Below, in pieces: positions 1-26,106 of a stretch of 44,514 nt of DNA. Every line of letters starts with the position of its first letter. Position 1 is the stretch's first letter. The stretch lies in the NCBI GenBank assembly GCA_937910425.1, contig CALEOJ010000386.1, forward strand, positions 1-44,514, in the 5' to 3' direction. Origin of the DNA: an uncultured candidate division WPS-2 bacterium (lineage in GTDB: Bacteria; Vulcanimicrobiota; Vulcanimicrobiia; Vulcanimicrobiales; Vulcanimicrobiaceae). Under the pieces are notes generated by a model that saw nothing but the letters and a program-made list of their open reading frames with translations, made no database searches and had not been told where the DNA came from. The position numbers were made by a program, and so were the translations under genes.

Positions 1-902
1 GGATCGCCGGAGTCGCCGGCGAGGCGCCGGTGCACGACGCCGGCGCGCTGCAGGCCGTCGCGACCGTGCGCCGGCTGCGTCCAAAGCTGCCTCAGATCGC
101 GATCGCCGACAGCGCGTTCCACCGCACGATGCCCGCGGCCGCGACGACGTACGCGCTGCCGCGCGAACTCACCCGGTCGGGATTGCGCCGGCTCGGCTAT
201 CACGGCTTGAGCCACGAGTACGCCGCGCATCGCGCCTGCGCGCTCGCGGGGATCGACGTCGCTCGCGCGCGCGTCGTCACGGCGCATCTCGGCGGCGGTT
301 CGTCGCTGTGCGCGATCCGCGACGGCGCGAGCGTCGATACGACGATGGGCTACACGCCGCTCGAAGGGCTGCCGATGGCGACGCGCAGCGGCTCCGTCGA
401 TCCGGGCTTGCTGCTACACCTGCTGCGCGGCGGCCTCACGGTGAGCGAGCTCGAGGATGTGCTCGAACGCCGGTCCGGTCTGCTCGGGATCTCGGGACGC
501 AGCGGCGACGTGCGGGAGCTGCTCGCCGCACGCGAGGACGGCGACGCCCGGCTCGCGCTCGACGTGCTCGCATGGCGGCTTCGCGCCGGGATCGGCGCGA
601 TGATCGGGGTCCTCGGCGGCGTCGACCTCATCGCGTTCACCGGCGGCGTGGGCGAGCACGCGGTCGAGATTCGCGCGGCCGGCGTGCAGGGCGCCGCCGC
701 CGCGGGAGCCCTGGTCGACGAAGGACGCAACGCCTCGCTGACAGGCGAGGGCCGCATCTCCGGCGATCGCTCGCGCGTCGCCGTTTACATCGTCGCCGCG
801 CGCGAGGGATGGCAGCTCGCGCGCGCCGCGTTCACGGCGGCGGAGAACGCCTTCGGCCATGCTGCCGAGGATCGCGTGCCGGATCCTCCTACCGCGCTGT
901 GA
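1..902 (+). CDS. ackA: Acetate kinase, 5' end cut by window
   Basis: Converts acetyl phosphate and ADP to acetate and ATP (or the reverse) in the cytosol. The frame is open from base 3, so the N-terminal part lies outside the window; the GTG at 30 in the ORF track is internal. Visible family signatures are GYHGLSHEY, the AHLGGGSS phosphate-binding stretch, the TTMGYTPLEGL / TRSGSVDPG segment and FTGGVGEH near the C terminus. These make the assignment secure. The phosphoketolase at 9195-11570 makes acetyl phosphate, the substrate of this enzyme, so the two genes probably form one fermentative or energy-salvage branch. The gene ends in a short Ala/Pro-rich tail. Confidence 0.95.
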   Translation, partial: IAGVAGEAPVHDAGALQAVATVRRLRPKLPQIAIADSAFHRTMPAAATTYALPRELTRSGLRRLGYHGLSHEYAAHRACALAGIDVARARVVTAHLGGGSSLCAIRDGASVDTTMGYTPLEGLPMATRSGSVDPGLLLHLLRGGLTVSELEDVLERRSGLLGISGRSGDVRELLAAREDGDARLALDVLAWRLRAGIGAMIGVLGGVDLIAFTGGVGEHAVEIRAAGVQGAAAAGALVDEGRNASLTGEGRISGDRSRVAVYIVAAREGWQLARAAFTAAENAFGHAAEDRVPDPPTAL

Positions 903-940
903 CGAACGCGTGAAATGCTCTTCGCGAGTCGTTCACAGGG

Positions 941-1447
941 ATGCCGCACACTTCGGACATGGTCAGCGATATGGCGATCCGCGTTCGTCGCGCCGCCGCC
1001 GGTGACGCCGATCGGATCGACGCGCTGGTGCGTTCGCTCTCGCCCGGCTCCATCTTGAGGCGCTTCATGGGCGGCGTATCGCGCGAGGTCGCAGTTGCGG
1101 AACTGTCCCGCGAGGTCCGGGCCGGCGGCACCGACTTCGCGCTGATCGCGGAGAACTCGCGTGGCGAGCTCATCGGGGAGGCGTACGTCGCCATGCTGAC
1201 CCCGCACGATGCCGAGGCCGCCTTCGTCGTGCGGGATCGCGAGCAGCATCACGGCGTGGGGACGGCGCTCCTGACGGCGATCGTCGCCGAGCTGCGCGCG
1301 CGCGGGGTTCGCACGCTTCACGCTGACACGACGCCTGAAAACGTCGCGATGCTCGCGCTTCTGCACGAGGGCGGATTGGCGTCGCACGAACGGTATCTCA
1401 ACGGCATGATCCACGTCTCGGTCCAGATCGGCGAATCATCGACGTGA
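941..1447 (+). CDS. GNAT-family N-acetyltransferase
   Basis: A single GNAT domain of 168 aa. The acetyl-CoA pyrophosphate loop is visible as RDREQHHGVGTALL (the Q/R-x-x-G-x-G/A type), followed by a helix and the TPENVAMLALL strand-helix typical of the fold. The N-terminal part (LVRSLSPGSILRRFM) resembles the GNAT domains found in Pat-type protein acetyltransferases. A substrate cannot be read from the sequence. Starts at 941, 959 and 971 are all possible; the domain itself begins near 971. The 3' end overlaps the convergent SpoIIE-like gene by about 50 bases. Its place next to acetate kinase suggests a link to acetyl metabolism, which is inference only. Confidence 0.85.
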   Translation: MPHTSDMVSDMAIRVRRAAAGDADRIDALVRSLSPGSILRRFMGGVSREVAVAELSREVRAGGTDFALIAENSRGELIGEAYVAMLTPHDAEAAFVVRDREQHHGVGTALLTAIVAELRARGVRTLHADTTPENVAMLALLHEGGLASHERYLNGMIHVSVQIGESST

Positions 1448-2264
1448 ACGGCGCTTGCGCCGGCCACGCGCCATAGATTAGATCCTCGCACGCAAAAAGG
1501 ATTCCGTCGCCCGGCGATGGGTGCTTCGCCGCACCGGCACCGCCCGCCGCGACGATGCGGGCGACGACTACGCCGATGTCGTCCGTCTGGCGCCCGCCTG
1601 CGTGAGCGCACGCCACGTCGAGCACACCTCGCGCGGGATCGCCCCCACGGCGCAACGATCGCGCGACCGCGCACGCGGTCCGTTCGGCGCCGAAAAAATC
1701 ATCCGAGCCGGCGGGGCGGCTGTCGGCGACGCCGTCGGTCACAATGACCAGCGTCTCGCCCGCGTCGAGGGAGAGTACCGCGTCGCAGACGTGGACCGCG
1801 TACGGCACGCCGAGCATCGGCGCGGTCGGTCCGAGGTGACGGAGACGGCCGTCCTCGGCGAGCGTGAAGGCGACGTCGTGGCCGGCCGATGCGTAGACGA
1901 CGGTCCGCAATGCGGGATGGACCAGCGCGACGAAGGCGACTGCGTACGGCGATTCGTCGGCGAACCTCCGCAGCCGGTCGTCCGCGCAGCCGAGCGCCGC
2001 AGCCGGCGATGCGCCGCCCAGGAGTTCCGCTGTGATCGCGCCGGCGATGGCGGATGCGAGCGGAGCACGGGTCGCGCCGTGGCCGGCGACGTCGACCATG
2101 ACGATCGCGGTGCGGCCGGAGCCGAGCGGCAGCGTGAAGGCCATGTCGCCACAGCGGCCGTCATGGGCGGACGCTGCGCGCACGACCTGCCACACCCGTA
2201 TGCTCGACGGTGGCGGCCGTGGTGTGAAGAATGCACCACGGACCCAAACCGCTGCGTTCGTCAT
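1398..2264 (-). CDS. PP2C/SpoIIE-type serine phosphatase (RsbU-like)
   Basis: A 288-aa protein consisting almost entirely of a SpoIIE/PPM phosphatase domain. Metal-binding acidic motifs are visible: CGDMAF near residue 40, VMVDVAGHG, YASAGHD, IVTDGVADS and RQTDDIG near the end. Family members dephosphorylate anti-anti-sigma factors in partner-switching stress pathways or act as sensor phosphatases. No sensory domain is attached, and no anti-sigma or STAS partner is visible in the window, so the target is unknown. The last ~35 residues form a tail beyond the usual domain end and are encoded opposite the end of the GNAT gene. The ATG at 2264 has no clear Shine-Dalgarno sequence. Confidence 0.85.
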   Translation of the reverse strand: MTNAAVWVRGAFFTPRPPPSSIRVWQVVRAASAHDGRCGDMAFTLPLGSGRTAIVMVDVAGHGATRAPLASAIAGAITAELLGGASPAAALGCADDRLRRFADESPYAVAFVALVHPALRTVVYASAGHDVAFTLAEDGRLRHLGPTAPMLGVPYAVHVCDAVLSLDAGETLVIVTDGVADSRPAGSDDFFGAERTACAVARSLRRGGDPARGVLDVACAHAGGRQTDDIGVVVARIVAAGGAGAAKHPSPGDGILFACEDLIYGAWPAQAPFTSMIRRSGPRRGSCR

Positions 2265-2642
2265 GTGGCGATGCTACCGCGCGAGAATGAACATCATGTG
2301 AAGGGGCTGACGGCTTCTTTCACGTGCCGTTCTCAATTTGGCGATAGGCTGCGAGCGGGAAACGCACCGAGAGCGAGTGCATCGCTTACCTTGGGAAGCG
2401 GCGTTGCTGCGACCGAGGGTCGAGCGGCGGTGCTTTGACCGCGTTGGGATGCAGCTTCGGCGCATGCTGAGTCGTCTCGTGGTGGATTGCGCGCTCGAGG
2501 GTTTCGACTTCGAGACGGTGCTCCTCGTTAACGCCGTCCGGGCGCGGGGGGTTCGCTTTCCGTGATCTCATGGAGTTCCTCCGGATTGGGTGGCCCGTTC
2601 ATTCTCGCCGAGCCGTGAGAAGAGACGATGAAGAGACGCGGT
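2265..2642. other. Intergenic stretch, no supported gene
   Basis: About 380 bases between two minus-strand genes. Short ORFs exist on both strands (2338-2565 plus, 2386-2571 minus), but their protein sequences show no domain-like pattern and no good ribosome binding site. An imperfect inverted pair (CATGTGAAGG / TTTCACGTG) around 2294-2327 could be an operator or a weak hairpin. It probably holds the promoter for the phosphatase and the trailer of the P-type ATPase. Confidence 0.4.
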
Positions 2643-5165
2643 TCACGACTCGGACGCCCTTTGCCCGAAGAACAGACGCTTCCCGAGCTCGATCAAGCCC
2701 AGATACGTGACGACCATCAGCCCGAGAACGGCGAAGAACGCCGGCGGCAAGGCGACGAACCCGAGCACGTGAGCGAGCGGCGTGAACGGCAATGCCAGCG
2801 CGACCGCGGCCACGCCCAGCGTCGCAACGGTGAGCTGCCGGCTCGCGCGGCTGGCAAAGAACGGAACGCGGCGCGTTCGGATGAGAAAGATGACCAGCGA
2901 CTGCGTCGCGAGCGACTCGACGAACCAGCCGGTCCGGAACAGCTCGGGACCCGCGTGAAAGAGGAAGATCATCACGCCGAAGGTGAGGAAATCGAAGATC
3001 GACGAGATCGGCCCGAAGACCATCATGAAGCGCCGGATGAACTGCATGTCCCAGTGCGCCGGGCGCTGGAGCTGCTCCTCATCGACCTTGTCGGTCGGAA
3101 TCGTCATCTCGCTCACGTCGTACAGCAGGTTGTTGAGCAAGATCTGCGATGGCAGCATCGGCAGGAACGGAAGGAAGAGCGATGCGCCCGCGGCGCTGAA
3201 CATGTTGCCGAAGTTCGACGACGTCCCCATCAGCACGTATTTGGTCGTGTTGGCGAAGATGCGGCGGCCCTCGACGACGCCGTCGGCGAGTATCCCAAGG
3301 TCTTTTTCGAGCAGGACGATGTCCGCGGCGTCTTTCGCGACGTCGGTCGCCGAGTCGACCGAGATTCCGACGTCCGCATCATGCAGCGCGACGGCGTCGT
3401 TGACGCCGTCGCCGAGAAAGCCGACCACGCTGTCGGCCGCGCGCTGAAGCTTGATGATGCGCGACTTCTGCTCCGGCGTCACGCGCGCGAAGATCGTCGT
3501 GCCTTCGAGCGCGCCGCTGAGCTCCTCGTCGCTCATCGCGGCGATCTCCTTGCCGGTGAGGACGCCCGCGACCGGCAGACCGAGCTCGCGGCAGACGACG
3601 CGCGCGGTGCGATCGCTGTCGCCCGTCACGATCTTCAGCCGTATCTCGAGCGCCTCGAGGCGCCGCAGGCTCGCCGCGGCGTCCGCCTTCGGCTCGTCGG
3701 CGAAGGCGAGCAAACCGGCAAGCGACAAATCGCGCTCTTCGGAGGGATGGAGCTCGGTCAACGACGGCGCGTCGCGCTGCGCGAGCGCGAGTATTCGGTT
3801 TCCGGCGTCGAGCTGCACGTCGACGAGCTGCTCGAACGCCGTGTCGATCGACCCGCACCGTGCCCCAATCGCTTCCGGCGCGCCTTTGGCGAGGAGCAGG
3901 CGCCGCCCGTCCGGCGCGTCGACCAAGACCGACATCATCTGCCGCTGATAATCGAACGGCGCGCGGTCGATGACGCGATAGCTCGCCGCCCCAGCGCGCC
4001 GCGCCGGCGTCGCGGCTTCCCACAGCGCGACATCGAGCGCGTTGCCGCCGACGACGCGGTCCCCGTCGAAGACGACGTCGGTGCACACCAAGCCCAGTAG
4101 CGCCGCGTCGTCGGAGACCGCCCCACCGGGATCGATCGCGTGGCGAAACGAGATCTTGCCGTTCGTGAGCGTCCCCGTCTTGTCGGTGAAGAGGACCTCG
4201 ACGTTGCCGAGGTCCTCGATTGCGACCAGCCGCTTCACGATCACCGAGCGCCGCGCGAGGCGGCGCGCGCCGACCGAGAGGCTGATCGTGACGATGGCGG
4301 GGAGCAGCTGCGGCGTGATGCCGATCGCGATCGCCAGCGCGAACAGCAGCGACTCCAGCAACGAATGGTGCAGGAGCGCGTTGCACGCGAAGATCGCGGC
4401 CGCCAGAACGACGGTGACGCGGACCAGCAGTAGCGAGAAGCTGCGCAGCCCCAGCTCGAACGCCGTCTGCGGCGGACGTTCCGAGAGCTGGTGCGCGATC
4501 GATCCGAATGCCGCGTCGCGGCCGGTCGCGACGACGACGCCGCTCGCTGCGCCGTTCTTGACGGCGGTGCCGAAGAAGGCGCAGGACGGGAGGTCGAGCG
4601 GCGAGTCGCTCTGCCCGCACGGCGAAGGTGATTTCGTCGCCGGCAGCGCCTCGCCGGTCAGCGCCGACTCGTCGCATTCGAGATCGTGCGCGTCGATGAG
4701 CCGCAGGTCGGCCGGGACGACGTCGCCGACCCCGAGCCGCACGACGTCGCCCGGGACGAGCTCCGTGACGTCGACCGTCTCGCGTCTCCCGCCGCGCACG
4801 ACCACGGCTTTGCGCCGGACGCGCGCGCGCAAGTCCGCGACCGCGTTCTCCGAGCCGAACTCGTTCGCGAAGCTCAATCCCGCGCTGAGGCAGACGATAG
4901 CCAGGATGATCAGCGCGTCGGAGCGGTCGTGCAACCAGAGCGAGACCAGTGCGGTGCTGACCAGCAGGATCAGAAACGGGTTCCCGAGCTGCCGGCCGAG
5001 GATCGCGAACGCGCTGGTGCGGCGCTGCTCGATCTCGTTCGGCCCGGTCCGCCGGAGACGCGCCTCGGCCTCGTCCGGCGCGAGTCCGCCGGGCGAGGTC
5101 CCGAGCCGAAGCAATACCTCGTCGAAGGTGAGTGCCGCGGCGGTCCGCAGGTCCAGGGACGGCAT
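2643..5165 (-). CDS. mgtA: Mg2+-translocating P-type ATPase (MgtA/MgtB type)
   Basis: An 840-aa P-type ATPase of the magnesium-importer subfamily. In order: a cation-ATPase N-terminal domain (to about 60), transmembrane pair M1-M2 (62-100), an actuator domain with LTGEALP (169-175), M3-M4 with TPQLLPAIV (about 284-292), the phosphorylation motif DKTGTLT (Asp328), the nucleotide domain, the hinge motif GDGVNDAVAL and a long C-terminal membrane domain. The stretch SSNFGNMFSAAG followed by LLYDVSEMTIPTD is typical of Mg2+ ATPases. It sits in the inner membrane and would import Mg2+ at the cost of ATP. No Mg2+-sensing leader was recognised upstream. Similar ATPases occur in hypoxia and dormancy gene sets of other bacteria, which fits its neighbours. 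Confidence 0.95.
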   Translation of the reverse strand: MPSLDLRTAAALTFDEVLLRLGTSPGGLAPDEAEARLRRTGPNEIEQRRTSAFAILGRQLGNPFLILLVSTALVSLWLHDRSDALIILAIVCLSAGLSFANEFGSENAVADLRARVRRKAVVVRGGRRETVDVTELVPGDVVRLGVGDVVPADLRLIDAHDLECDESALTGEALPATKSPSPCGQSDSPLDLPSCAFFGTAVKNGAASGVVVATGRDAAFGSIAHQLSERPPQTAFELGLRSFSLLLVRVTVVLAAAIFACNALLHHSLLESLLFALAIAIGITPQLLPAIVTISLSVGARRLARRSVIVKRLVAIEDLGNVEVLFTDKTGTLTNGKISFRHAIDPGGAVSDDAALLGLVCTDVVFDGDRVVGGNALDVALWEAATPARRAGAASYRVIDRAPFDYQRQMMSVLVDAPDGRRLLLAKGAPEAIGARCGSIDTAFEQLVDVQLDAGNRILALAQRDAPSLTELHPSEERDLSLAGLLAFADEPKADAAASLRRLEALEIRLKIVTGDSDRTARVVCRELGLPVAGVLTGKEIAAMSDEELSGALEGTTIFARVTPEQKSRIIKLQRAADSVVGFLGDGVNDAVALHDADVGISVDSATDVAKDAADIVLLEKDLGILADGVVEGRRIFANTTKYVLMGTSSNFGNMFSAAGASLFLPFLPMLPSQILLNNLLYDVSEMTIPTDKVDEEQLQRPAHWDMQFIRRFMMVFGPISSIFDFLTFGVMIFLFHAGPELFRTGWFVESLATQSLVIFLIRTRRVPFFASRASRQLTVATLGVAAVALALPFTPLAHVLGFVALPPAFFAVLGLMVVTYLGLIELGKRLFFGQRASES

Positions 5166-5172
5166 ACCGATA

Positions 5173-5415
5173 CTATGTGCCGCGCCGCGTGAACTCCCCG
5201 TCCGTGTACTCCGCCAGCGTTCGAAGCGTAGGGTCGCAGGACGCGTTCAGCAATAGCCGCGTCGACAGCCGCAGGGCTTCGGCGGCCTCCTCGGATCCCG
5301 GCCGGCGCGCGGCTCTTGCCCGGTGTTCTTGCCGCGGAAGCCGTATCGAGATAGATCGCCCGGGCGCTGGGAGGCGAGGGCTACTCGCTGCGGCGGCCTG
5401 CGCGATCCGCAGCAT
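5173..5415 (-). CDS. Possible small protein, weakly supported
   Basis: An 80-aa ORF between the SRPBCC-like gene (whose 3' end it overlaps by 35 bases) and mgtA (8 bases downstream). The first 45 residues are Arg/Ala/Pro-rich and look like out-of-frame GC-rich DNA. The last 35 residues (from SEEAAEALRL to the end) look more protein-like. The operon-like spacing is the main argument for it. No family was recognised. It may be a chance ORF, or the true protein may be only its C-terminal half with an unusual start. Confidence 0.27.
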   Translation of the reverse strand: MLRIAQAAAASSPRLPAPGRSISIRLPRQEHRARAARRPGSEEAAEALRLSTRLLLNASCDPTLRTLAEYTDGEFTRRGT

Positions 5416-5872
5416 CCGATGTGTGCCCTACGTCGGCGACGACATCGGCGATAAGGCGGTCGAGGAGGTCCGCCAATGCGCGCGGCGCGATGCCGCGCGC
5501 GGCGGTCGCATCGATTGCGCGCCCGAGTATCCCGAGCGGGACCTCATACTCTCCGGACAGGGTGACCTTGGTTGCGGCGGTGCTCGCCTCGGCGAGGTCG
5601 AGGTCGCCTCGAAATCGCGGGTAGAGCGCCGGCCTGGTTCGTGCCGTGATCGTGAGCCCGAATCGGGGGGTTTTCGGCGCAAGATACCTCACGTGCAAGC
5701 GCACCGGCACAGCGACGCGCCCTCCCCCGGGGATCCACGCGGCCAGCACGACCGTCCCGTGCTCGGAGGCTTCCTCCAACGTCTCGAGCTGCCGCCGCAG
5801 CAGCGGCACGATCGCGTCGCAGTTCATCGGAATGCTTCGCACGATCGAGACGGGGGATGTCATCGGCGCCAT
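5381..5872 (-). CDS. SRPBCC-like (polyketide-cyclase/START-fold) protein
   Basis: A 163-aa protein of a conserved family of unknown function whose pattern fits the SRPBCC/START-like fold: a long N-terminal helix, strands, then LSGEYEVPLGILGRAID and a C-terminal helix. The final segment matches the C terminus of the PAS protein at 22350-23225 (LDGQYVPPFGALGRFFD), so the window encodes two members, one alone and one fused to PAS. SRPBCC domains hold hydrophobic ligands in a deep pocket; the ligand here is unknown. It is divergent from the hybrid kinase gene, with about 90 bases between starts. Other starts are possible (for example the Met at residue 16). Confidence 0.7.
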   Translation of the reverse strand: MAPMTSPVSIVRSIPMNCDAIVPLLRRQLETLEEASEHGTVVLAAWIPGGGRVAVPVRLHVRYLAPKTPRFGLTITARTRPALYPRFRGDLDLAEASTAATKVTLSGEYEVPLGILGRAIDATAARGIAPRALADLLDRLIADVVADVGHTSDAADRAGRRSE

Positions 5873-5964
5873 GGTCGCCGATGCGGCGGAAGATCGTTGG
5901 AACGGGCGTTCACATGAGGGTTCGCCGCCCGGCGCGGTTGAAGAACCGAGGCCCGGAGACCGAT

Positions 5965-8235
<2,271 letters not shown>

Positions 8236-8239
8236 CGCC

Positions 8240-9088
8240 TCACGCCGAGGTCGTACGCCGGACGGTGACGACCGGGATGCGCGCGTGCTCGACGACGTGT
8301 GCGGCGACGCTGCCCAGCACGAGCCGCTGGAACGCCGGCCGGCCGTGCGTGCCCATCACGATCATGCAGCACTCGAGCTCGTCGGCCGCCGAGAGCAGCG
8401 TCTCGGGCGCGCGGCCTTCACGAACGATGACTTCGGCGCTCACGCCGCGCGCGTGAACGCGCTTCGCGGCGCCGGCCAGCAGGGCGTTCACGCGGCCGGG
8501 ATCCGGGCTCGGCGTATCGCAGGCGTGGATCAGGGCGATCGAAAGTCCGCGTGCGGACGCGATCCAAATCGCGGTTTCGAGCGCGGCGTGCGCCGCCGGC
8601 GACTCGTCGAACGCTACCGCGATGGGGCCTTCTCGCACGACGTCGTCTTCGTGCACCGAGACCACCGGGACGTCGCTGCGCCGAAGGAGTCCCTCCGCGA
8701 CGCTGCCGAGCACGCTGCGTGCCAGGCCGGTTCTGCCGTGCGTGCCGACGACGATCGCCTGGGACCCGCTCTGCCGGACCAGCGACTCGATCGCTTCGAC
8801 GCACTGTCCGTGCAGCACGCGCACCTCCGCCGCGATCCCCGCGCCGGCCGCTTCGACTTGGGCACGCCGGCAGAATTCCGCCGCGTCGTCTTCGAGCACG
8901 GCGAGCATCGGGCCGGGATCGACCGCGACGCCGTAGGTGGCCGGCAGACAGACCAGCATTGGGTCGACGACGCTGCAGAACGTGACCGATCCCCCGCCGC
9001 GCGCGAGCTCCAGCGCGAACGCGACGCCTCGTTCGCTAGTCGTCGAACCGTCGACCGGGACGGTGATGTGCCCAAACGCGGCGCTCAT
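8240..9088 (-). CDS. Tandem universal stress protein (two UspA domains)
   Basis: A 282-aa cytosolic protein made of two UspA domains. Each keeps the ATP-binding pattern G-x2-G-x9-G-S: GTHGRTGLARSVLGS in the first and GTHGRPAFQRLVLGS in the second, so both halves may bind ATP. Tandem Usp proteins are typical of hypoxia and stationary-phase regulons. The start ATG at 9088 is preceded by GATGAGGAC, a good ribosome binding site. It converges on the hybrid kinase gene (4 bases between stops) and diverges from phosphoketolase, with about 105 bases of shared upstream DNA. No clear -35/-10 pair was found there. Confidence 0.95.
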   Translation of the reverse strand: MSAAFGHITVPVDGSTTSERGVAFALELARGGGSVTFCSVVDPMLVCLPATYGVAVDPGPMLAVLEDDAAEFCRRAQVEAAGAGIAAEVRVLHGQCVEAIESLVRQSGSQAIVVGTHGRTGLARSVLGSVAEGLLRRSDVPVVSVHEDDVVREGPIAVAFDESPAAHAALETAIWIASARGLSIALIHACDTPSPDPGRVNALLAGAAKRVHARGVSAEVIVREGRAPETLLSAADELECCMIVMGTHGRPAFQRLVLGSVAAHVVEHARIPVVTVRRTTSA

Positions 9089-9194
9089 GTCCTCATCGTC
9101 GCGGCCTCGTAAGAAAGGGCCAAGAATGCGAAGCGTTGTGCGCGTTCACACCCTCTTCACCCGGCCGACCCGTCGCGCGGCGTAGAATACCAGC

Positions 9195-11570
9195 GTGACG
9201 ATCATGGACTCGGCGACGATCCCCTTGCCGGCGCGCCTCGCCGCGCTCGACCGCTACTGGCGGACGGCGAACTACCTCGGGGCCGCGCAGCTCTATCTTC
9301 GCGACAACGTGCTCTTGCGGCGCCCGCTCGAAGCCTCCGACTGCAAGGTCCGCGTGCTCGGGCACTGGGGGACGCAGCCCGGGCTGAATCTCGTGTACAC
9401 GCACCTGAATCGGATCGTGAGCGACCGCGATCTCGACATGCTGCTCGTGGTTGGCCCTGGGCACGGGGCGCCGGCGATCTACGCCAACCTCTTCCTCGAG
9501 GGAACGCTCGGTGACCTCGATCCCCGTTTTGCCCGCGATGAAGCCGGGGCATCGCGGCTGGTGCGAGAGTTCTCGTGGCCGGGCGGTATGCCGAGCCATT
9601 TGACCGCACACGCGCCCGGTGCGCTGCACGAAGGCGGAGAGCTCGGCTACGCGCTTTCGCACGCCTACGGCGTCGCGCTCGACGATCCCGAGCTGGTCGT
9701 TGCCTGCGTCATCGGCGACGGTGAAGCGGAGACCGGCCCGCTCGCCGCATCCTGGCTCTCGCACGCGTTCATCGATCCGACGATGTCGGGCGCCGTGCTG
9801 CCCATCCTTCACCTGAACGGCTATAAACTTTCCGGTCCGACGGTCCTGGCGCGCCTGACCGACGAGGGGCTTCGCGCCTATCTTCGCGGACTTGGCTACG
9901 AGCCGATCGTCGTGCGGGTTGACGACCGGCAGACGGCGGATGCAATGCACGAGAGCCTTTGGCGGGCGTTCGACGCCGCGTACGATCGCCTGGCGGAGCG
10001 CCGTGCCGCCGCGCAGCGGTGCGCCGCGCCGATCGCGCCGCCGGTCCTGGTCCTGCGGTCGCCGAAGGGGATGACCGGGCCTTCGTCGATCGACGGAAAG
10101 CCCGTGGTCGATACGCCACGTTCGCACGGCATCCCGATCAGCGATCCGGTCACGAATGCCGAGCACCGGCTCGCAGTGGAACGATGGTTGCGTTCCTATC
10201 GGCCGGAGGAACTGTTTGACGTGGCGGGCCGGCCGGAAGCGGATATCCTGGAGTGTCTTCCGCCGACCCCTCGGCTGATCGGCCGCAACTCGCGTGCCAA
10301 CGGCGGCACGCGCCGCGTGCCGCTCGTGCTGCCTGCGCTGGAGCCGCACGCATCCAAGTGTCCAGTACCGGGAGCGATCTCTGGCTCGGCGACGCACCGC
10401 CTCGGCGGCTGGCTGGCAGACGTGTTCTGGGCGAACGCGCACACCGCGAACTTCAGGCTCTTCTCCCCGGACGAGACCTCGTCGAACAAACTGGACGACG
10501 TCTTCTCGGTGACCGCGCGAGCATGGGTGTTGCCGCATGTGGCGACCGACGAGTCGCTGGCGCGCGACGGGCGCGTGATGGAGATGCTGAGCGAACATAC
10601 CTGCGAGGGCTGGATGGAAGGCTACGTCCTGTCCGGCCGCCACGGCATCTTTGCATCGTACGAGGGTTTCGTGCCGATCGTCGATTCGATGGTCGCGCAG
10701 TACGCGAAGTGGCTCAAGATGGCGCGAGAGACGCCGTGGCGCCGGCCGCTGTCAGGGTTGAACTTCCTGCTGACGTCCCATGTCTGGCGTCAGGAGCACA
10801 ACGGCTATTCGCACCAGGGTCCCGGATTCGTGAACACGGTGCTCAACAAGAAGCCGGAAGCCGTTCGCGTGTACTTCCCGCCGGATGCGAACACGCTGCT
10901 GTGCGTGATGGAGCACGTGCTGGCGAGCACCGATCGTATCAACGTCGTGGTCGCGCCGAAGCAGGAAGCGCCGCAGTGGTTCAGCCTCGAGCAGGCACGT
11001 GCCCAAAGCGCGGCCGGCGCCAGCCGCTGGACGTGGGCGGCGGACGACCCGAATCCGCATGTCGTGCTCGCCTGCGCCGGCGACGTCATGGCGCAAGAGA
11101 CGTTGGCCGCCGTCTCGCTACTGCGCGCTCACGCGCCGACGCTGCGCCTCAGGGTTGTAAACGTCCTGAACCTCTTCGCCCTCGCATCCCCGGAGATGCA
11201 TCCGAGCGGTACGGACGACCGCCGGTTCGTCGAGCTCTTCACCGGCGACCGTCCGGTCGTGTTTGCCTACCACGGCTATCCGCGCACAGTGCACGAACTG
11301 ATCTACCGGCGCCCGTCGCCGGGCCGTTTCCACGTCCACGGTTACGTCGAGGAAGGGACCACGACGACGCCGTTCGACATGGTCGTGCTGAATCGGGTCA
11401 GCCGCTATCACCTCGCGCTGGACGCGCTCCGGCGCGCCGAAGAGAGCGACGGATACCGCGTCCCGGAGGGCGCGCGCTGGTTCTGCGAAGATGCACTGGA
11501 GCGCCATGCGGCCTACATTCGCGAGTATGGACGCGACATGCCGGAGGTCGTGGATTGGGGCTGGCGCTGA
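9195..11570 (+). CDS. xfp: Xylulose-5-phosphate/fructose-6-phosphate phosphoketolase
   Basis: A 791-aa thiamine-diphosphate enzyme that cleaves xylulose 5-phosphate (and often fructose 6-phosphate) with phosphate to acetyl phosphate plus glyceraldehyde 3-phosphate (or erythrose 4-phosphate). Full length for the family. Visible signatures: VLGHWGTQPGLN near the start, VVGPGHGAPA, the ThDP/Mg2+ motif GDGEAETGPLA, SHAFIDP, the middle-domain HNGYSHQGPGF and C-terminal YHGYPRTVHELIYRR. The start is GTG at 9195 or ATG at 9204. With acetate kinase at the window start it completes an ATP-yielding route to acetate, useful when respiration is limited. Confidence 0.97.
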   Translation: MTIMDSATIPLPARLAALDRYWRTANYLGAAQLYLRDNVLLRRPLEASDCKVRVLGHWGTQPGLNLVYTHLNRIVSDRDLDMLLVVGPGHGAPAIYANLFLEGTLGDLDPRFARDEAGASRLVREFSWPGGMPSHLTAHAPGALHEGGELGYALSHAYGVALDDPELVVACVIGDGEAETGPLAASWLSHAFIDPTMSGAVLPILHLNGYKLSGPTVLARLTDEGLRAYLRGLGYEPIVVRVDDRQTADAMHESLWRAFDAAYDRLAERRAAAQRCAAPIAPPVLVLRSPKGMTGPSSIDGKPVVDTPRSHGIPISDPVTNAEHRLAVERWLRSYRPEELFDVAGRPEADILECLPPTPRLIGRNSRANGGTRRVPLVLPALEPHASKCPVPGAISGSATHRLGGWLADVFWANAHTANFRLFSPDETSSNKLDDVFSVTARAWVLPHVATDESLARDGRVMEMLSEHTCEGWMEGYVLSGRHGIFASYEGFVPIVDSMVAQYAKWLKMARETPWRRPLSGLNFLLTSHVWRQEHNGYSHQGPGFVNTVLNKKPEAVRVYFPPDANTLLCVMEHVLASTDRINVVVAPKQEAPQWFSLEQARAQSAAGASRWTWAADDPNPHVVLACAGDVMAQETLAAVSLLRAHAPTLRLRVVNVLNLFALASPEMHPSGTDDRRFVELFTGDRPVVFAYHGYPRTVHELIYRRPSPGRFHVHGYVEEGTTTTPFDMVVLNRVSRYHLALDALRRAEESDGYRVPEGARWFCEDALERHAAYIREYGRDMPEVVDWGWR

Positions 11571-17411: not shown

Positions 17412-18263
17412 TTAGCGTGCACGTTTTACGTCGTCGGGACTGATGATCGGTGAGTTGTTTCCCCACGACGTGCGTTCATGATCGATGATCGCGGCGATGT
17501 CGTTATCGCTGAGTTGTGGAAACGCCGGCATCTGACTTGCATACGGCTTCCCGACGATCGTCTTACCATGAAGTCCGTGCAAGACTATGCCGATGTGCGA
17601 CTCCGGGTCCTTCGCGGTGACGACCGGATCGCCGGCGAGCGCAGGAAAAGCCCCCGGAACGCCCACGCCGTTCACCCCGTGGCATGCCGAGCAGTTGGTC
17701 GTGTACAGTTGCGGCCCGGTCGCCGCATAGTCGAAGCCGGCCGCGACGCCATGCCCGCTGTACGTCGTCGGAGCCTTTTCGCCCATCGGCATGTTTGCTG
17801 CCGCAACGGCATTAGGCGCGTCCCCTTGAAGGAACGCGGTCGGCTGCTGAAACTCGGTCAGTCCGTACCAGCCAGCCCACGCGGCGATGAGCGCCGACAT
17901 GACCCACGTCCACACGGGAATCGGCCCGCTGGACTCGGCACGCACCGGGTCGAACGGCTCATTGGCACTGAACGCGTTGAGGGCGAGCTCGAGCCGTCCG
18001 CTGACGCGCTCGTTCGCGCGCAGCCCCGTGACGGTAATTCCAGGACCGTTCTGAACGACGAAGGGAATCACTCGTACCCCGGCGTTGCCGAGCGCATCCT
18101 GTGCCCGGACACGTAACACATGGGGCCCGTCTTCAAGCGCGGTCGTGTCGAGTTCGGCCGTCGCCGGGGGATGATACGTCGCGAGCGGTTCCGTCGCATC
18201 GTCCAGATAGACGCTGAGGGAGACGGTCTCGCCGCTCTCCGGACGACCGTCCGGCGGCTGCAT
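17412..18263 (-). CDS. cbb3-oxidase cytochrome c subunit (CcoP-like) with N-terminal Ig-like domain
   Basis: 283 aa. Residues 1-105 form a beta-rich Ig-like module (VSLSVYLDDATEP, HVLRVRAQDALGNAG). Residues 114-135 are one transmembrane helix (PIPVWTWVMSALIAAWAGW). From about 180 comes one class I cytochrome c domain with haem motif CSACH (191-195) and axial Met in QMPAF (Met245). Normal CcoP has two haem c domains; here there is only one. The start overlaps the preceding small subunit gene by one base (TGATG). The protein would pass electrons to the CcoN/CcoO core. The Ig-like part before the helix, with no signal peptide, is unusual for this subunit. Confidence 0.88.
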   Translation of the reverse strand: MQPPDGRPESGETVSLSVYLDDATEPLATYHPPATAELDTTALEDGPHVLRVRAQDALGNAGVRVIPFVVQNGPGITVTGLRANERVSGRLELALNAFSANEPFDPVRAESSGPIPVWTWVMSALIAAWAGWYGLTEFQQPTAFLQGDAPNAVAAANMPMGEKAPTTYSGHGVAAGFDYAATGPQLYTTNCSACHGVNGVGVPGAFPALAGDPVVTAKDPESHIGIVLHGLHGKTIVGKPYASQMPAFPQLSDNDIAAIIDHERTSWGNNSPIISPDDVKRAR

Positions 18264-18439
18264 CAGCGGTCGTCCTTAAAGATGAGGTTTTTGGGGTGGT
18301 CGGGCGCAGTCTCGCCGGGCCAGAACGTTACGCGAAAGGCCAGCACGAACGCGAGCAGGGTGACGAGCGCGCCGGCGATCACGACGATCGTTCCCAAAAG
18401 GTCGCCGCCGGGCGGGGGCCCCATCTGCATACCGCTCAT
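18263..18439 (-). CDS. Small single-helix membrane subunit of the cbb3 cluster
   Basis: 58 aa, too short for the ORF track as a separate entry and merged there into a shadow. Starts MSGMQMGPPPGG, has one helix (LLGTIVVIAGALVTLLAFVLAF), then a short tail with FWPGETAPDHP. Its ATG overlaps the ccoO stop (ATGA) and its stop overlaps the ccoP-like start, so translation is coupled. The size and position match a CcoQ-like or assembly subunit, but sequence identity to CcoQ is not evident, so no symbol is given. Confidence 0.75.
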   Translation of the reverse strand: MSGMQMGPPPGGDLLGTIVVIAGALVTLLAFVLAFRVTFWPGETAPDHPKNLIFKDDR

Positions 18440-19026
18440 GGTGATGGCGCGCGTGACGGAAGGGGCGGCTGCTTGAGTGACTTCAGGTAGGCCACGAGAT
18501 CTTGCTCCTCGTGCGTGGCGACGATGACTTTCCCCGGTGGCGCGTACTCCGGCGGAACGCTGACGACGACGTCGTCGGGCGCGGCGTGGTCCTTGGCGAC
18601 GAACATCCATGGATATGCCGGCATGATCGATCCGTGCACGAGCGCGCGCGGTTCGTAGAGGTGGATCGACTGCCAGACGTCGCTCGGCTGGCGTACTCCG
18701 ATGTTGCTCAAGTCGGGTCCCGTCCGCTCGGAACCGAGCAGCTGCGGCGTCGAGAACGCGTAGTCGCCCCCCCTCGAAGGTCGACCCCAGACCCGATCTT
18801 GCGCCAGCGGGCGGACCTGCTGCGTGTGGCAGTACGAACACCCCTCGCCGACGTACACATCGCGTCCGCGTGCGGCTGCCGCATCGAGCGGGACGAGCCC
18901 CGGGGTAGGTGGCGTCTTCGACAAGATCGTGCCGGGGATGACTCCCATGACGAGCGCCATAAAGGCATAGACGCCCGCGGCACTCAGCACAAGCACGCGT
19001 ACGTTGTCCATGCCGCGCCGTTTCAC
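18436..19026 (-). CDS. ccoO: cbb3-type cytochrome c oxidase subunit II (CcoO/FixO)
   Basis: 196 aa: an N-terminal membrane anchor (about 9-30), then a mono-haem cytochrome c domain with CSYCHTQQVRPL (haem Cys63/Cys66, His67), a signature of FixO/CcoO. The segment around RTGPDLSNIGVRQPSDVW and SIMPAYPWMF, with the axial Met, also matches the family. It carries electrons to the CcoN active site in the periplasm. The GTG start at 19026 overlaps the ccoN stop (GTGA); an ATG 5 codons in is also possible. It is slightly short for the family. Confidence 0.93.
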   Translation of the reverse strand: MKRRGMDNVRVLVLSAAGVYAFMALVMGVIPGTILSKTPPTPGLVPLDAAAARGRDVYVGEGCSYCHTQQVRPLAQDRVWGRPSRGGDYAFSTPQLLGSERTGPDLSNIGVRQPSDVWQSIHLYEPRALVHGSIMPAYPWMFVAKDHAAPDDVVVSVPPEYAPPGKVIVATHEEQDLVAYLKSLKQPPLPSRAPSP

Positions 19027-20453
19027 TCGTGAGCACTTTCCGCAGCGAGCGACATCGGCGAGGAGGACGTCGCCGTCGGCGTCGGAGCTAGCGTCATTCG
19101 CCAGACGTTATATGCGAAGATGACGTGGGCCAGCAACATCATCGTTCCGGAGACGGCGCGCCCGCTCCAATAGGGCGCCGCCGCCTCGACGGACGCGATG
19201 AACGGATCGCCGTTCGCCCACGTGATGCCTTGGACGGTGCCGGCGACCGACAGAACCAGCACGTAGATCGTCACGCCCAAGAACGCAAGCCAGAAGTGCA
19301 ATCCGACAAGGAGCAGGGGAGGGCGCTTCCCGGTCGCCATCGGCAAGAGTCCATAGATGCCGCCCCAAGCGATGAAGGTGATGAAGCCGTACATCGTAAG
19401 ATGCGAGTGCCCGACCGTGAAGTTCGTAAGGTGCCATATCGCTTGTAGACTGCGAAACGCCTCGACGGTGCCTTGTGTCGAACCCACGAAATAGTACAAC
19501 ACGCCGACGAAGAAGAACGGCAGCGCGTACGAGCGGCGGACCGTCGCCCATCGCCCGCGCATCGTCAGCCAAAAATTGCCGGTGCCGGCCCAGACCGGCA
19601 CGAGCATCCCTACGCTAAAGACGATTGCCAGCGTCTGAAACCACCACGGCAATGGCGAGAACTCGTAGTGGTGCGCGCCGATAACCGGGTAGAACACGAG
19701 GTTCGTCCAAAAGCCGAGGACGCCGAGCGCGTACGAATAGATCGGCCGATTCAGAAGTTTCGGAAGCGAGTAGTACGTGACACCCAGTGCGAGGAACGTG
19801 AACCACATTCCGACGGCGTTGTGCATGTAGAACCCTTGCACTGCCACTTGGCCAAGGCCGTACTGGTAGATCGGGATGGCCGCAGTAACGCCCAGGATCG
19901 TCGTGAAGATGAAGCCGCCGATCGTGTACCAGTTCGCAATGTAGATCTCGCGTTCGCGCCGCGCCATCACCGTGGCAACGACGACGACTCCGCTCAGAAC
20001 GACTGCGAGCAGGAAGAATGCGGCGACCCACCAGACCCATTCGCGATATTCTTGACTGCCGTTGCTGATGCCGAGATCGAGGGTGATGCCTCCAAGGACG
20101 GCGGCGATGTTGTAGGACCACAACGCCGCCCACGCGAGCCGCTTCTGGCGCAGATGGATACCCGACGATCGCGCGGCGATGTAGAACGCGAGGCCGGTGA
20201 GTGCGAGCGACGCCCAGCCGTAGAACGTGCCGTTCGTGTGGATCGCCCGCAGACGTCCGAACGAAAGGAACGGATTCGTCGCCAGATCCGGATACGTGAA
20301 CTTGAAGCTTAGGAGCAGCCCGATCGCGGTCGTGATCAACAGCCAAAGGGTCGCCGAAATCGTAAACGCACTGAAAATGGCGACGTCTTCGGCAACGGAA
20401 GCCTCATCGAACCGCTCACGGGAGCTCAGCCTGCCAACAGTCGCAGTTGACAT
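19023..20453 (-). CDS. ccoN: cbb3-type cytochrome c oxidase catalytic subunit I (CcoN/FixN)
   Basis: 476 aa with about 12 transmembrane helices: the proton-pumping haem-copper core that reduces O2 to water with high affinity. Histidine ligands appear in RAIHTNGTFYGW (low-spin haem b), FYPVIGAHHYEF (Cu-B) and HLTNFTVGHSHLTMYGF (haem b/b3). It is first of the ccoN-ccoO-small-ccoP-like run, all genes overlapping by 1-4 bases. The ferredoxin gene lies about 97 bases upstream. No second promoter is obvious in that gap, so it is probably transcribed from the FNR-type promoter at 21190. Confidence 0.96.
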   Translation of the reverse strand: MSTATVGRLSSRERFDEASVAEDVAIFSAFTISATLWLLITTAIGLLLSFKFTYPDLATNPFLSFGRLRAIHTNGTFYGWASLALTGLAFYIAARSSGIHLRQKRLAWAALWSYNIAAVLGGITLDLGISNGSQEYREWVWWVAAFFLLAVVLSGVVVVATVMARREREIYIANWYTIGGFIFTTILGVTAAIPIYQYGLGQVAVQGFYMHNAVGMWFTFLALGVTYYSLPKLLNRPIYSYALGVLGFWTNLVFYPVIGAHHYEFSPLPWWFQTLAIVFSVGMLVPVWAGTGNFWLTMRGRWATVRRSYALPFFFVGVLYYFVGSTQGTVEAFRSLQAIWHLTNFTVGHSHLTMYGFITFIAWGGIYGLLPMATGKRPPLLLVGLHFWLAFLGVTIYVLVLSVAGTVQGITWANGDPFIASVEAAAPYWSGRAVSGTMMLLAHVIFAYNVWRMTLAPTPTATSSSPMSLAAESAHE

Positions 20454-20550: not shown

Positions 20551-20790
20551 TTACTTGTAGTGGTCCGCGTTGATAGCGGAATAGTGTTTCCACTTGTCCG
20601 GGACGTCGGCATCGGCATAGATTGCTTCGACGGGGCAGGCGGACACACATGCGCCGCAATCAATGCACACCTCGGGGTCGATGTAGACTTGGGGGTCGGC
20701 GTCGCCACCGTGGATGCAATCGACGGGGCAGACATCGACGCAAGACTTGTCTTTCGTTCCGATGCACGGCTCGGTGATGACGTAGGGCAT
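20551..20790 (-). CDS. fdxA: 7Fe ferredoxin ([3Fe-4S][4Fe-4S])
   Basis: 79 aa, cytosolic electron carrier. The first cluster motif is split (PCIGTKDKSCVDVCPVDC, with a long gap between the first and second Cys), as in seven-iron ferredoxins. The second, CIDCGACVSACP, is a standard [4Fe-4S] motif. The ending VPDKWKHYSAINADHYK resembles FdxA-type proteins of actinobacteria and thermophiles. The start at 20790 is preceded by AAGAAGGA. It lies between the Rieske gene and ccoN on the same strand, so it is probably part of the oxygen-limited respiratory operon. Confidence 0.92.
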   Translation of the reverse strand: MPYVITEPCIGTKDKSCVDVCPVDCIHGGDADPQVYIDPEVCIDCGACVSACPVEAIYADADVPDKWKHYSAINADHYK

Positions 20791-20817: not shown

Positions 20818-21150
20818 TTATGCCTCGGAGGTTGCGTTCTTCTCGCCGACGTAGACGTCAGCGCCGTCAACCCGGACCGGATACGTATCGAGCGGCAGGA
20901 GGGCCGGTAACCGCAGGACGGCTCCCGAGATGACGTCGAAGCGGGCTCCGTGGCGCGGGCACTCAATCTCCTTTCCGAAGAGCACGCCCTGATCAAGCGG
21001 CCATCCGTCATGCGTGCACACGTTCGCAATCGCATAAAACCGGCCCGCGACGTTGCACAAAAGAACGTCGTCGCCGTCCGCGCTGGTGACCGGCCGCGCA
21101 GTCCCGGCAGGAACGTCGGTGACTTTCCCGACCGGCCGGGCGTTTGGCAT
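20818..21150 (-). CDS. Rieske [2Fe-2S] ferredoxin
   Basis: About 110 aa from the ATG at 21150, which has GGAGG 7 bases upstream; the ORF-track start at 21198 would lie within the promoter region. Both halves of the Rieske cluster motif are present: CTHDGWPL (Cys, His) and CPRHGARFD (Cys, His). There is no signal peptide or membrane anchor, so it is a soluble Rieske ferredoxin of the NirD/dioxygenase-ferredoxin type, not a bc1 Rieske subunit. First gene after the FNR-type promoter, 28 bases before the ferredoxin gene. The electron partner is unknown; the FAD reductase at 24290 is a candidate. Confidence 0.9.
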   Translation of the reverse strand: MPNARPVGKVTDVPAGTARPVTSADGDDVLLCNVAGRFYAIANVCTHDGWPLDQGVLFGKEIECPRHGARFDVISGAVLRLPALLPLDTYPVRVDGADVYVGEKNATSEA

Positions 21151-21189
21151 CGTGTCCTCCGCAGGACGATCGCGACGATTTCCCGATCC

Positions 21190-21238
21190 CTCCTGCATTG
21201 TAACGGCCGGCCTCGCCCGTCGTGTTGATTTTGATCAA
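21190..21238 (-). promoter_or_regulatory. FNR-type palindrome and class-II promoter for the Rieske-fdxA-cco genes
   Basis: A perfect FNR consensus TTGAT-N4-ATCAA lies at 21225-21238. On the minus strand a TACAAT -10 element lies at 21202-21197, which places the transcription start near 21190. The palindrome centre (21231.5) is then at -41.5, the exact position of class-II FNR activators. The palindrome is symmetric and also lies 45 bases upstream of the divergent Crp/Fnr-family gene, so it could autoregulate that gene. The site is seen directly; its use is inference. Confidence 0.75.
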
Positions 21239-21282
21239 TGACGTGCGACAGCACGTAATCGCGGCGGAAGCGTAGAGCAGCG

Positions 21283-22224
21283 ATGCCTCCTGCCAAGCAA
21301 ACTCGGACGCTCGACGTGCGTCCGATCCCGACCTGGGAGCGTCACGGGCGCATCTTTTCGGCGTTCGCCGACCTGCGCGGTGATGCATCTCTGACGATCG
21401 TCACGGACCATGAACCCCGCCCGCTCCACCTGCAATTCCAGGAACGCCATCCTGACGAGTTCGTATGGGAACAACGCCAAGTGGGCAGCGGGCGATGGGA
21501 GGTAAAACTTCAATGGTCGCCGCGGGCCGAAAACGGCGTAGACGACCAGACCTTCTTTCAACGTTGTGCGGTCCTTTCCAACGCGAGTGAGGAGACGCTG
21601 CGTGCGTTCCAGCAGGTGGCCGGCGAACGAACCTTCGAGGAAGGCGCGTCGATCGTCGAGCAGGACGCCCAATGGCCGTATCTGGGCCTCGTCCGGAGCG
21701 GGACGCTATCCGCCATCATCGGTTCGAGCACGGGACGCGATCAGGGTCTTTTCGACTTCCTTCAGGGCGACACGTTCGGTGACGTCGAGACTCTCGACGG
21801 CGGCCGAACGCTTGCGCGCATCGTGGTGACGGCAGCGCCGGCACGAGTCGTCCTGATCCCGCGCGGTATCGTTATTTCAGCTATGATGGCGGATCCTACG
21901 TTTGGACGGCAGTTAGCGGCGGTCTGCGCACAACGAGTACGCGTTCTCGCAGCGCACTTCTCGGCACATGTCGCTCATCCCGCCATCGCGCGCGTTGCTG
22001 CCGCGCTCCTCCCTTACGCGTCGGCCGATGCTGGGCTTGCGCCCTCGTTAGGGCCCCTCCAACACATGACGCAGAATCAACTTGCCGTTGTCGCTGGAAC
22101 AGCGAAGGAAGTCGCAGCTCGTGCCATTGCGGAGCTCGAGGCGGCGGGGGCCCTGCAACGCACGCAGGGCCACATTTCCCGAATTGACCGCGCCAAGCTG
22201 CGGGCATTCATCCCGGAGCAATGA
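21283..22224 (+). CDS. Crp/Fnr-family regulator with N-terminal DUF2249 domain
   Basis: 313 aa. Residues about 8-78 match DUF2249 (RTLDVRPIPTWERHGRIFSA, then a DHEPRPLHLQFQ segment), a small domain found in redox and denitrification proteins. Residues about 93-210 form a cNMP-type effector domain (GLVRSGTLSAII, GDTFGDVETLDGG). The C terminus is a Crp-type helix-turn-helix (MTQNQLAVVAGTAKEVAARAI) that keeps the Glu and Arg which in FNR and Crp contact the TGA half-site core. The N-terminal four-Cys Fe-S motif of FNR is absent: only Cys95 and one later Cys are present. Any redox sensing must use another route, perhaps the DUF2249 part. Divergent from the Rieske operon over the palindrome. Confidence 0.9.
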   Translation: MPPAKQTRTLDVRPIPTWERHGRIFSAFADLRGDASLTIVTDHEPRPLHLQFQERHPDEFVWEQRQVGSGRWEVKLQWSPRAENGVDDQTFFQRCAVLSNASEETLRAFQQVAGERTFEEGASIVEQDAQWPYLGLVRSGTLSAIIGSSTGRDQGLFDFLQGDTFGDVETLDGGRTLARIVVTAAPARVVLIPRGIVISAMMADPTFGRQLAAVCAQRVRVLAAHFSAHVAHPAIARVAAALLPYASADAGLAPSLGPLQHMTQNQLAVVAGTAKEVAARAIAELEAAGALQRTQGHISRIDRAKLRAFIPEQ

Positions 22225-23262: not shown

Positions 23263-23650
23263 CTATGACGAACCGGAGCTTAATATGTGGGAAGCGGGTG
23301 TGAAGCATGCGTAGGTGTCGCTTGAGTCGCTCCCGGCGCGGAATCGAGACCGGATGTACGGCAAAGGGTTGCCAAAGTCGTAGGGAGGAGCGATCACGGC
23401 CGGGATCCTCTTGAAGTTGTAGTAGGGTGGCGGCGAGCTGATCATCCACTCCAGTGTACGCGCTCCCCAGGGTTCGGGCCCGCCTTCTTCCCGTTCCTGA
23501 GACTCCACAGGATGTTGATGAACATCAGCAGGATGGCGAATGCCATCACATACGATGAGACCGATGCGAACTCGTTCCAGAAGCGGAATTGTGGGTCGTA
23601 GGTTGCTACGCGCCGTGGCATACCCAGCAGACCGAGCCAGTGCAGCCTGG
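23263..23650 (-). pseudogene. Relic of aa3-type cytochrome c oxidase subunit I (ctaD), C-terminal part
   Basis: The minus strand reads HWLGLLGMPRRVATYDPQF and AILLMFINILWSLRNGKKAGPNP, the last two helices of CtaD. The frame then breaks near 23460, and the neighbouring frame continues with PWGARTLEWMISSPPPYYNF, the conserved C terminus. The N-terminal 400 or so residues with all haem and copper ligands are missing. It is a dead remnant upstream of the PAS protein, about 3 kb from the intact cbb3 operon. The sequence from 23651 to 23910 shows no gene. Confidence 0.85.
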
Positions 23651-23910
23651 CATCAAAATACCCATCCCGGCAGCAACCTCTGCGATGCATGTCGCAATGG
23701 GCTGCGCCCTCACGTGAAGATTCCTACCCTCGTCCATACTAGGACGGTCCCGAGTCGATCGCCTTGACATTAATCATTTGCAGACGGCGAATTCTTAGCG
23801 CGGACATTGCACTCGTCGCCGCGCACGCATGGAAGAGATCTCGAATGGCCAGCAGGATGACGCTCCGTGAAAGTCGCCTTCGGCGCTATGCAAAGATGGC
23901 GGCTCAGCAA

Positions 23911-25845: not shown

Positions 25846-26106
25846 TACGTATTCCTTTATGAGGTAGATTCTGCTCCGAATGTGTTTTTCTATGGAAAGC
25901 GTGCGACAAGGATTGCAATGTCGTCTTGCAGTTGCCCGGATCTGGCCGATCTCAATCTCGTGGGTGCCCGTCAGGAATCGGTACGCGCTCTTGCTCACGA
26001 ATTTGTACCGCGCCGATGACTCCGGTCATTGACAAATCGAGTTGCGCTACTTGCGCCACATCACATGGGCTCGCGGGTTAGAATGAGGAGGAGGATATTG
26101 AAGGGG

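Follow-up and report, generated by a model that had tools for sequence, protein, structure and literature searches.

An FNR-type palindrome in a predicted class II promoter between a DUF2249-Crp regulator gene and a divergent oxidase operon of Candidatus Eremiobacterota

RESULTS

Gene organization around the 132-bp gap

In the window, by which we mean the whole stretch of 44,514 nucleotides from an uncultured soil bacterium that was analysed, a 132-bp gap separates a minus-strand Rieske-fdxA-ccoNO(Q)P operon from a regulator gene on the plus strand. The first gene of the operon encodes a Rieske [2Fe-2S] ferredoxin-like protein (20818–21150; PF00355). We preferred the start codon at 21150, ahead of which the Shine-Dalgarno sequence GGAGGA can be read at 21160–21155, giving a leader of 40 nt; a longer ORF start at 21198 is probably not used because it overlaps the predicted −10 element. 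Further along the same strand lie genes for an FdxA-like ferredoxin (20551–20790; below the NCBIfam cut-off), a ccoN-like heme-copper oxidase subunit I (19023–20453; PF00115), a ccoO/fixO-like subunit (18436–19026; PF02433), a 58-aa membrane protein assigned to the ccoQ slot by position only (18263–18439) and a ccoP-like cytochrome c subunit (17412–18263; PF00034 and PF13442). The ccoN, ccoO and ccoP products carry these Pfam domains and found their best NCBIfam matches among cbb3 models (TIGR00780 for ccoN) but scored below the cut-offs, and the oxidase is therefore a divergent one.

The gene on the other side of the gap (21283–22224, plus strand) encodes the proposed activator. Its product contains a cNMP-binding-type domain (PF00027) and a Crp-type HTH (PF13545), both above cut-off, which place it in the Crp/Fnr superfamily, together with a DUF2249 domain; the best NCBIfam matches, FtrB and CRP, were far below cut-off. 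The fold predicted by a structure model (pLDDT 86) agrees with known structures of Crp-family proteins, Thermus CAP, DNR and FixK2 among them. The protein has two cysteines in total and lacks the FNR set. In the helix GTVKEVVxR, E and R are kept; these residues are the DNA contacts in Crp/Fnr proteins. The helix reads KEVAAR in the window regulator and KEVVSR in most relatives. A relative was found in 98 of the 99 genomes of the family, a DUF2249 domain likewise in 98 of 99, and the nearest relative (59%) is in genome G062. When named genomes were queried with the single protein no matches were obtained, but an alignment query did yield named relatives, and these put the lineage in Candidatus Eremiobacterota. 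Two relatives in the sister family f2 (L114 in G130 and L115 in G129) have one in-frame stop codon each. A paralogous DUF2249-Crp protein with an RDMAAR helix, encoded on contig C355 of the same genome (G000; locus L008), is near-universal in the family.

A palindrome centred at −41.5 from a predicted start

An exact search of the window agreed with the sequence-only reading that TTGAT-N4-ATCAA occurs once: TTGATTTTGATCAA, the palindrome TTGAT-TTTG-ATCAA, lies at 21225–21238. The same reading had placed a minus-strand start near 21190, and the arithmetic bears this out for a start predicted from the −10 element. TACAAT (21202–21197, minus strand) is 22 bp from the palindrome, the inferred +1 six bases past it falls at 21190, and the centre of the palindrome (21231.5) is thus at −41.5 for the operon. 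On the minus strand no −35 match was found at 17 bp from TACAAT. With respect to the predicted start, the arrangement of a dyad near −41.5, a −10 element and no good −35 is the layout of class II CRP/FNR-activated promoters. No promoter passed a consensus scan, which is the expected outcome for a promoter that lacks a −35.

Of 20,000 dinucleotide-preserving shuffles of the 132-bp gap, 4 contained an exact match (p = 2e-4), and shuffling of the whole window gave an expectation of 0.025 exact matches each, so a chance match in the gap is unlikely. A second dyad, ACGTGC-GACA-GCACGT (21242–21257), which the sequence-only reading did not mention, adjoins the palindrome in the direction of the regulator gene. 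Other GC-rich dyads occur in some relatives, placed between the −35 and −10 elements of that gene.

The composite of palindrome and −10 element occurred twice in the genome of origin, both times in the window and 2.5 kb apart, versus none in the control. The second predicted operator, ATGAT-TAAT-GTCAA (23764–23777, minus strand), is 22 bp from TAGTAT (23741–23736). Downstream of it an oxidase subunit I gene survives as a remnant, its C-terminal part in two frames (23356–23642, minus strand); in an intact relative of this remnant (L088), a site with one mismatch lies at 22 bp from the −10. A third operator-like palindrome, ATGAC-TCCG-GTCAT (ATGACTCCGGTCAT; 26016–26029), had no −10 at 22 bp. It received the top score with a matrix built without the window sites, and the palindrome at 21225–21238 ranked ninth in the window with the operator-only matrix. 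This third, perfect palindrome lies upstream of a CDGSH/FAD-reductase operon. Elsewhere in the window (3–11570), the genes of one run look by eye like those for acetate kinase, a P-type ATPase, a PAS sensor kinase, a universal stress protein and phosphoketolase, and the run is possibly a low-oxygen gene island.

The 22-bp spacing recurs in relatives

In the nearest relative, G062, the corresponding gap keeps the arrangement ATGACTTGCATCAA-21 bp-TACAAT, and the GTG start of a ferredoxin gene follows six bases further on. Around relatives of the regulator we found 13 intergenic palindromes (≤2 mismatches) followed by TANNNT at 20–24 bp, compared with 2 in the reversed control. A scan with a narrower consensus gave a spacing peak at 22 bp, with 11 sites versus none at that spacing in the control. 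With the wider consensus DTRAY-N4-RTYAH followed by TANNNT, applied to the family's loci around relatives of the regulator or around DUF2249 genes, the spacing was 22 bp in 21 sites and any other spacing occurred in at most 4; the control gave 1 in all. In 16 of the 21 sites an ATG follows TANNNT by 6–7 nt, a leaderless-type start, and the centre is therefore independently placed near −41.5. A single genus contributed eight of the 21, and the peak was still clear when these eight were counted once; at least one site (L085) is a coding chance match. On contigs chosen for stand-alone DUF2249 genes, all four matches had the 22-bp spacing, three of them from one genus. The genes behind the 22-bp sites encode stand-alone DUF2249 proteins, FdxA-like ferredoxins and, in the scan with the narrower consensus, an oxidase subunit I (PF00115). 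An NnrS identity was dropped for the multi-pass membrane proteins that the target operons encode, since those scanned had no Pfam match.

The sites vary among relatives: some keep only one half-site, and the window form TTGAT/ATCAA differs from the commoner TGACC/GGTCA. Eighty named loci yielded no new 22-bp sites because most of them hold the other, universal paralogue. Of the 26 family genomes that encode a close relative of the regulator, 15 contained the leaderless composite; of the 73 that do not, 8 contained it (p = 6e-6). Some of these eight look like coding chance matches, and one of them, G037, is an incomplete genome whose genus does carry the regulator. P-values serve here as guides, since the wider consensus was chosen with part of the loci already known. 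The co-occurrence is an association in the sequence data and not proof of binding, and it could stem from gene linkage, as the targets are often near the regulator. Judged by these sequence comparisons, the predicted promoter geometry is real and conserved, and the site is part of a small predicted regulon shared by several genera within a single family of Candidatus Eremiobacterota, often with leaderless-type starts.

A second family, f14 of the same phylum (genomes G134–G140; loci L387–L405), had the same composite with a leaderless ATG up to 11 times per genome, versus 0 in the control. Among the genes behind these sites are those for copper nitrite reductase (nirK), hemerythrin, radical SAM and Crp-family proteins. 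The Crp-family protein has four N-terminal cysteines, and in f14 this geometry may serve a regulator closer to classical FNR.

No FNR cysteine set or wider site set was found in the genome

The genome of origin is 3.62 Mb in 408 contigs and is 92% complete. Besides the product of 21283–22224, five Crp-family proteins were found in it, one of them the DUF2249-Crp paralogue, and the Fe-S cysteine set of FNR was absent from all six. Apart from the site in the window, the genome contained a single exact match to the palindrome, which was intragenic. Allowing ≤1 mismatch gave 51 places versus 11 in the control; ORFs were called for 46 of the 51, and the one place that fell outside a called ORF reads as coding too. 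No other consensus sites before respiratory genes were found in this genome. A scan for TTGAT-N4-ATCAA in front of such genes, which the sequence-only reading had suggested, thus failed to widen the regulon, as the other matches checked were coding. Among the 99 family genomes the exact FNR consensus occurred about one to two times per genome with no sign of a regulon, and most of the matches examined were coding. The best-looking distant match, 7 kb from a regulator in G045, was rejected because it lies inside a cytochrome b gene, and most other composite matches from the family and phylum scans were rejected as coding.

DISCUSSION

Proposed mechanism

We consider it likely that the palindrome is a class II activator operator of the operon and that the dimer at −41.5 is most likely the divergently encoded DUF2249-Crp regulator. 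The regulator dimer would bind the palindrome centred at −41.5 for the minus-strand operon, where it would make up for the absent −35 contact and bring RNA polymerase to TACAAT, and this activation would switch on transcription of Rieske-fdxA-ccoNO(Q)P. The signal would be low oxygen or nitrogen oxides, sensed via DUF2249.

The locus had previously been read as a class II FNR site. The class II geometry holds up, with its 22-bp spacing recurring in relatives, and the attribution to FNR found no support, as the cysteine set was absent from the six Crp-family proteins found. A conventional Fe-S FNR could nevertheless bind here, the palindrome then belonging to a global anaerobic regulon and the neighbouring regulator acting on other targets. 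The palindrome matches the FNR consensus perfectly and occupies the position preferred in class II activation; in f14 sites of the same geometry are carried by a gene for a four-cysteine Crp-family protein, by nirK and by a hemerythrin gene; and an fnr gene could sit in the missing part of the 92%-complete genome. We regard this as unlikely, given that the Crp-family proteins found in the genome lack the cysteine set and that its other near-consensus sites are coding, which argues against a global regulon of this site. That another Crp-family protein of this genome, such as the DUF2249-Crp paralogue on contig C355, occupies the palindrome is quite improbable. The paralogue is present in nearly all family genomes with the same domains, but in its RDMAAR helix D replaces the conserved E, its loci are almost without 22-bp sites, and same-genus relatives that hold only the paralogue are without the leaderless composite.

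The sequence-only reading had also held that one site could control both the operon and the divergent regulator gene. Control of the operon is supported by the 22-bp spacing in relatives, and control of the divergent gene found no such support, the plus strand being without TANNNT at 22 bp. The palindrome might instead repress the regulator gene, as autoregulation, and have no part in activating the operon. A weak plus-strand promoter (TTGATC, 17 bp, CGTAAT; 21231–21259) would overlap it, but these hexamers are poor, none passed the consensus scan, and the conserved geometry faces the other side, that of the operon; such a role seems very improbable to us. We think it just as improbable that the palindrome is a chance match. 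Exact matches do turn up once or twice per family genome, most of those examined in coding sequence, but the frequency in the shuffled gap, the correct −10 spacing, the counterpart in G062 and the family-wide spacing peak all speak against it. Several features also count against activation of the operon by the DUF2249-Crp regulator, which we nonetheless hold to be likely: the spacing of 21 bp in G062, the loss of a half-site in some relatives, the KEVAAR helix of the window regulator, and a site that departs from the commoner TGACC/GGTCA form and ranks ninth in the window with the operator-only matrix.

A broader proposal is more tentative, and we give it somewhat less than even weight: DUF2249 may sense oxygen, NO or nitrogen oxides in place of the FNR Fe-S cluster, and the regulator may be widespread in Candidatus Eremiobacterota, driving stand-alone DUF2249 and low-oxygen oxidase genes from leaderless class II promoters.

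Comparison with known systems

The position −41.5 is described as the commonest for activation by FNR (PMC7349173). The promoter predicted here resembles class II promoters of the E. coli FNR type in having TTGAT-N4-ATCAA at −41.5 and a −10 element without a good −35. It differs from FNR class II systems in that an FNR with Fe-S cysteines was not found in the genome and the site does not belong to a genome-wide set.

FNR-like sites bound by proteins without the FNR cysteines are described for DNR, NnrR and HcpR; in some delta-proteobacteria the motif predicted for HcpR is wyTTGACnnnnGTCAArw, and hcp and a gene for a ferredoxin-like protein are under its control (PMC1274295). The window regulator is likewise a Crp-family protein without an FNR-type cysteine motif. 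DNR, NnrR and HcpR are not described in the account cited as carrying an N-terminal DUF2249, and their target sets and phyla differ (PMC1274295).

DUF2249 itself, a domain of no known function, had earlier been associated with denitrification in both Thermus and haloarchaea. In Thermus, DrpA/DrpB tie the domain to nitrate respiration, and drpAB mutants alter nar expression (PMC6282519); in Haloferax (H. mediterranei), all four DUF2249 genes of the species are induced in denitrification (PMC11218638). Here, the domain is fused to a DNA-binding candidate activator, with predicted sites before stand-alone DUF2249, oxidase and ferredoxin genes. The role of DUF2249 can thereby be put to the test with a single purified protein and a single short DNA, and a largely uncultured phylum gains a predicted oxygen or nitrogen-oxide regulon. 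The descriptions of Thermus DrpA/DrpB and the Haloferax proteins in the sources cited do not include a fusion of DUF2249 to a Crp DNA-binding domain (PMC6282519, PMC11218638). As far as these descriptions can be compared, the window regulator shares DUF2249 with the Thermus and Haloferax proteins and adds to it the Crp DNA-binding fusion.
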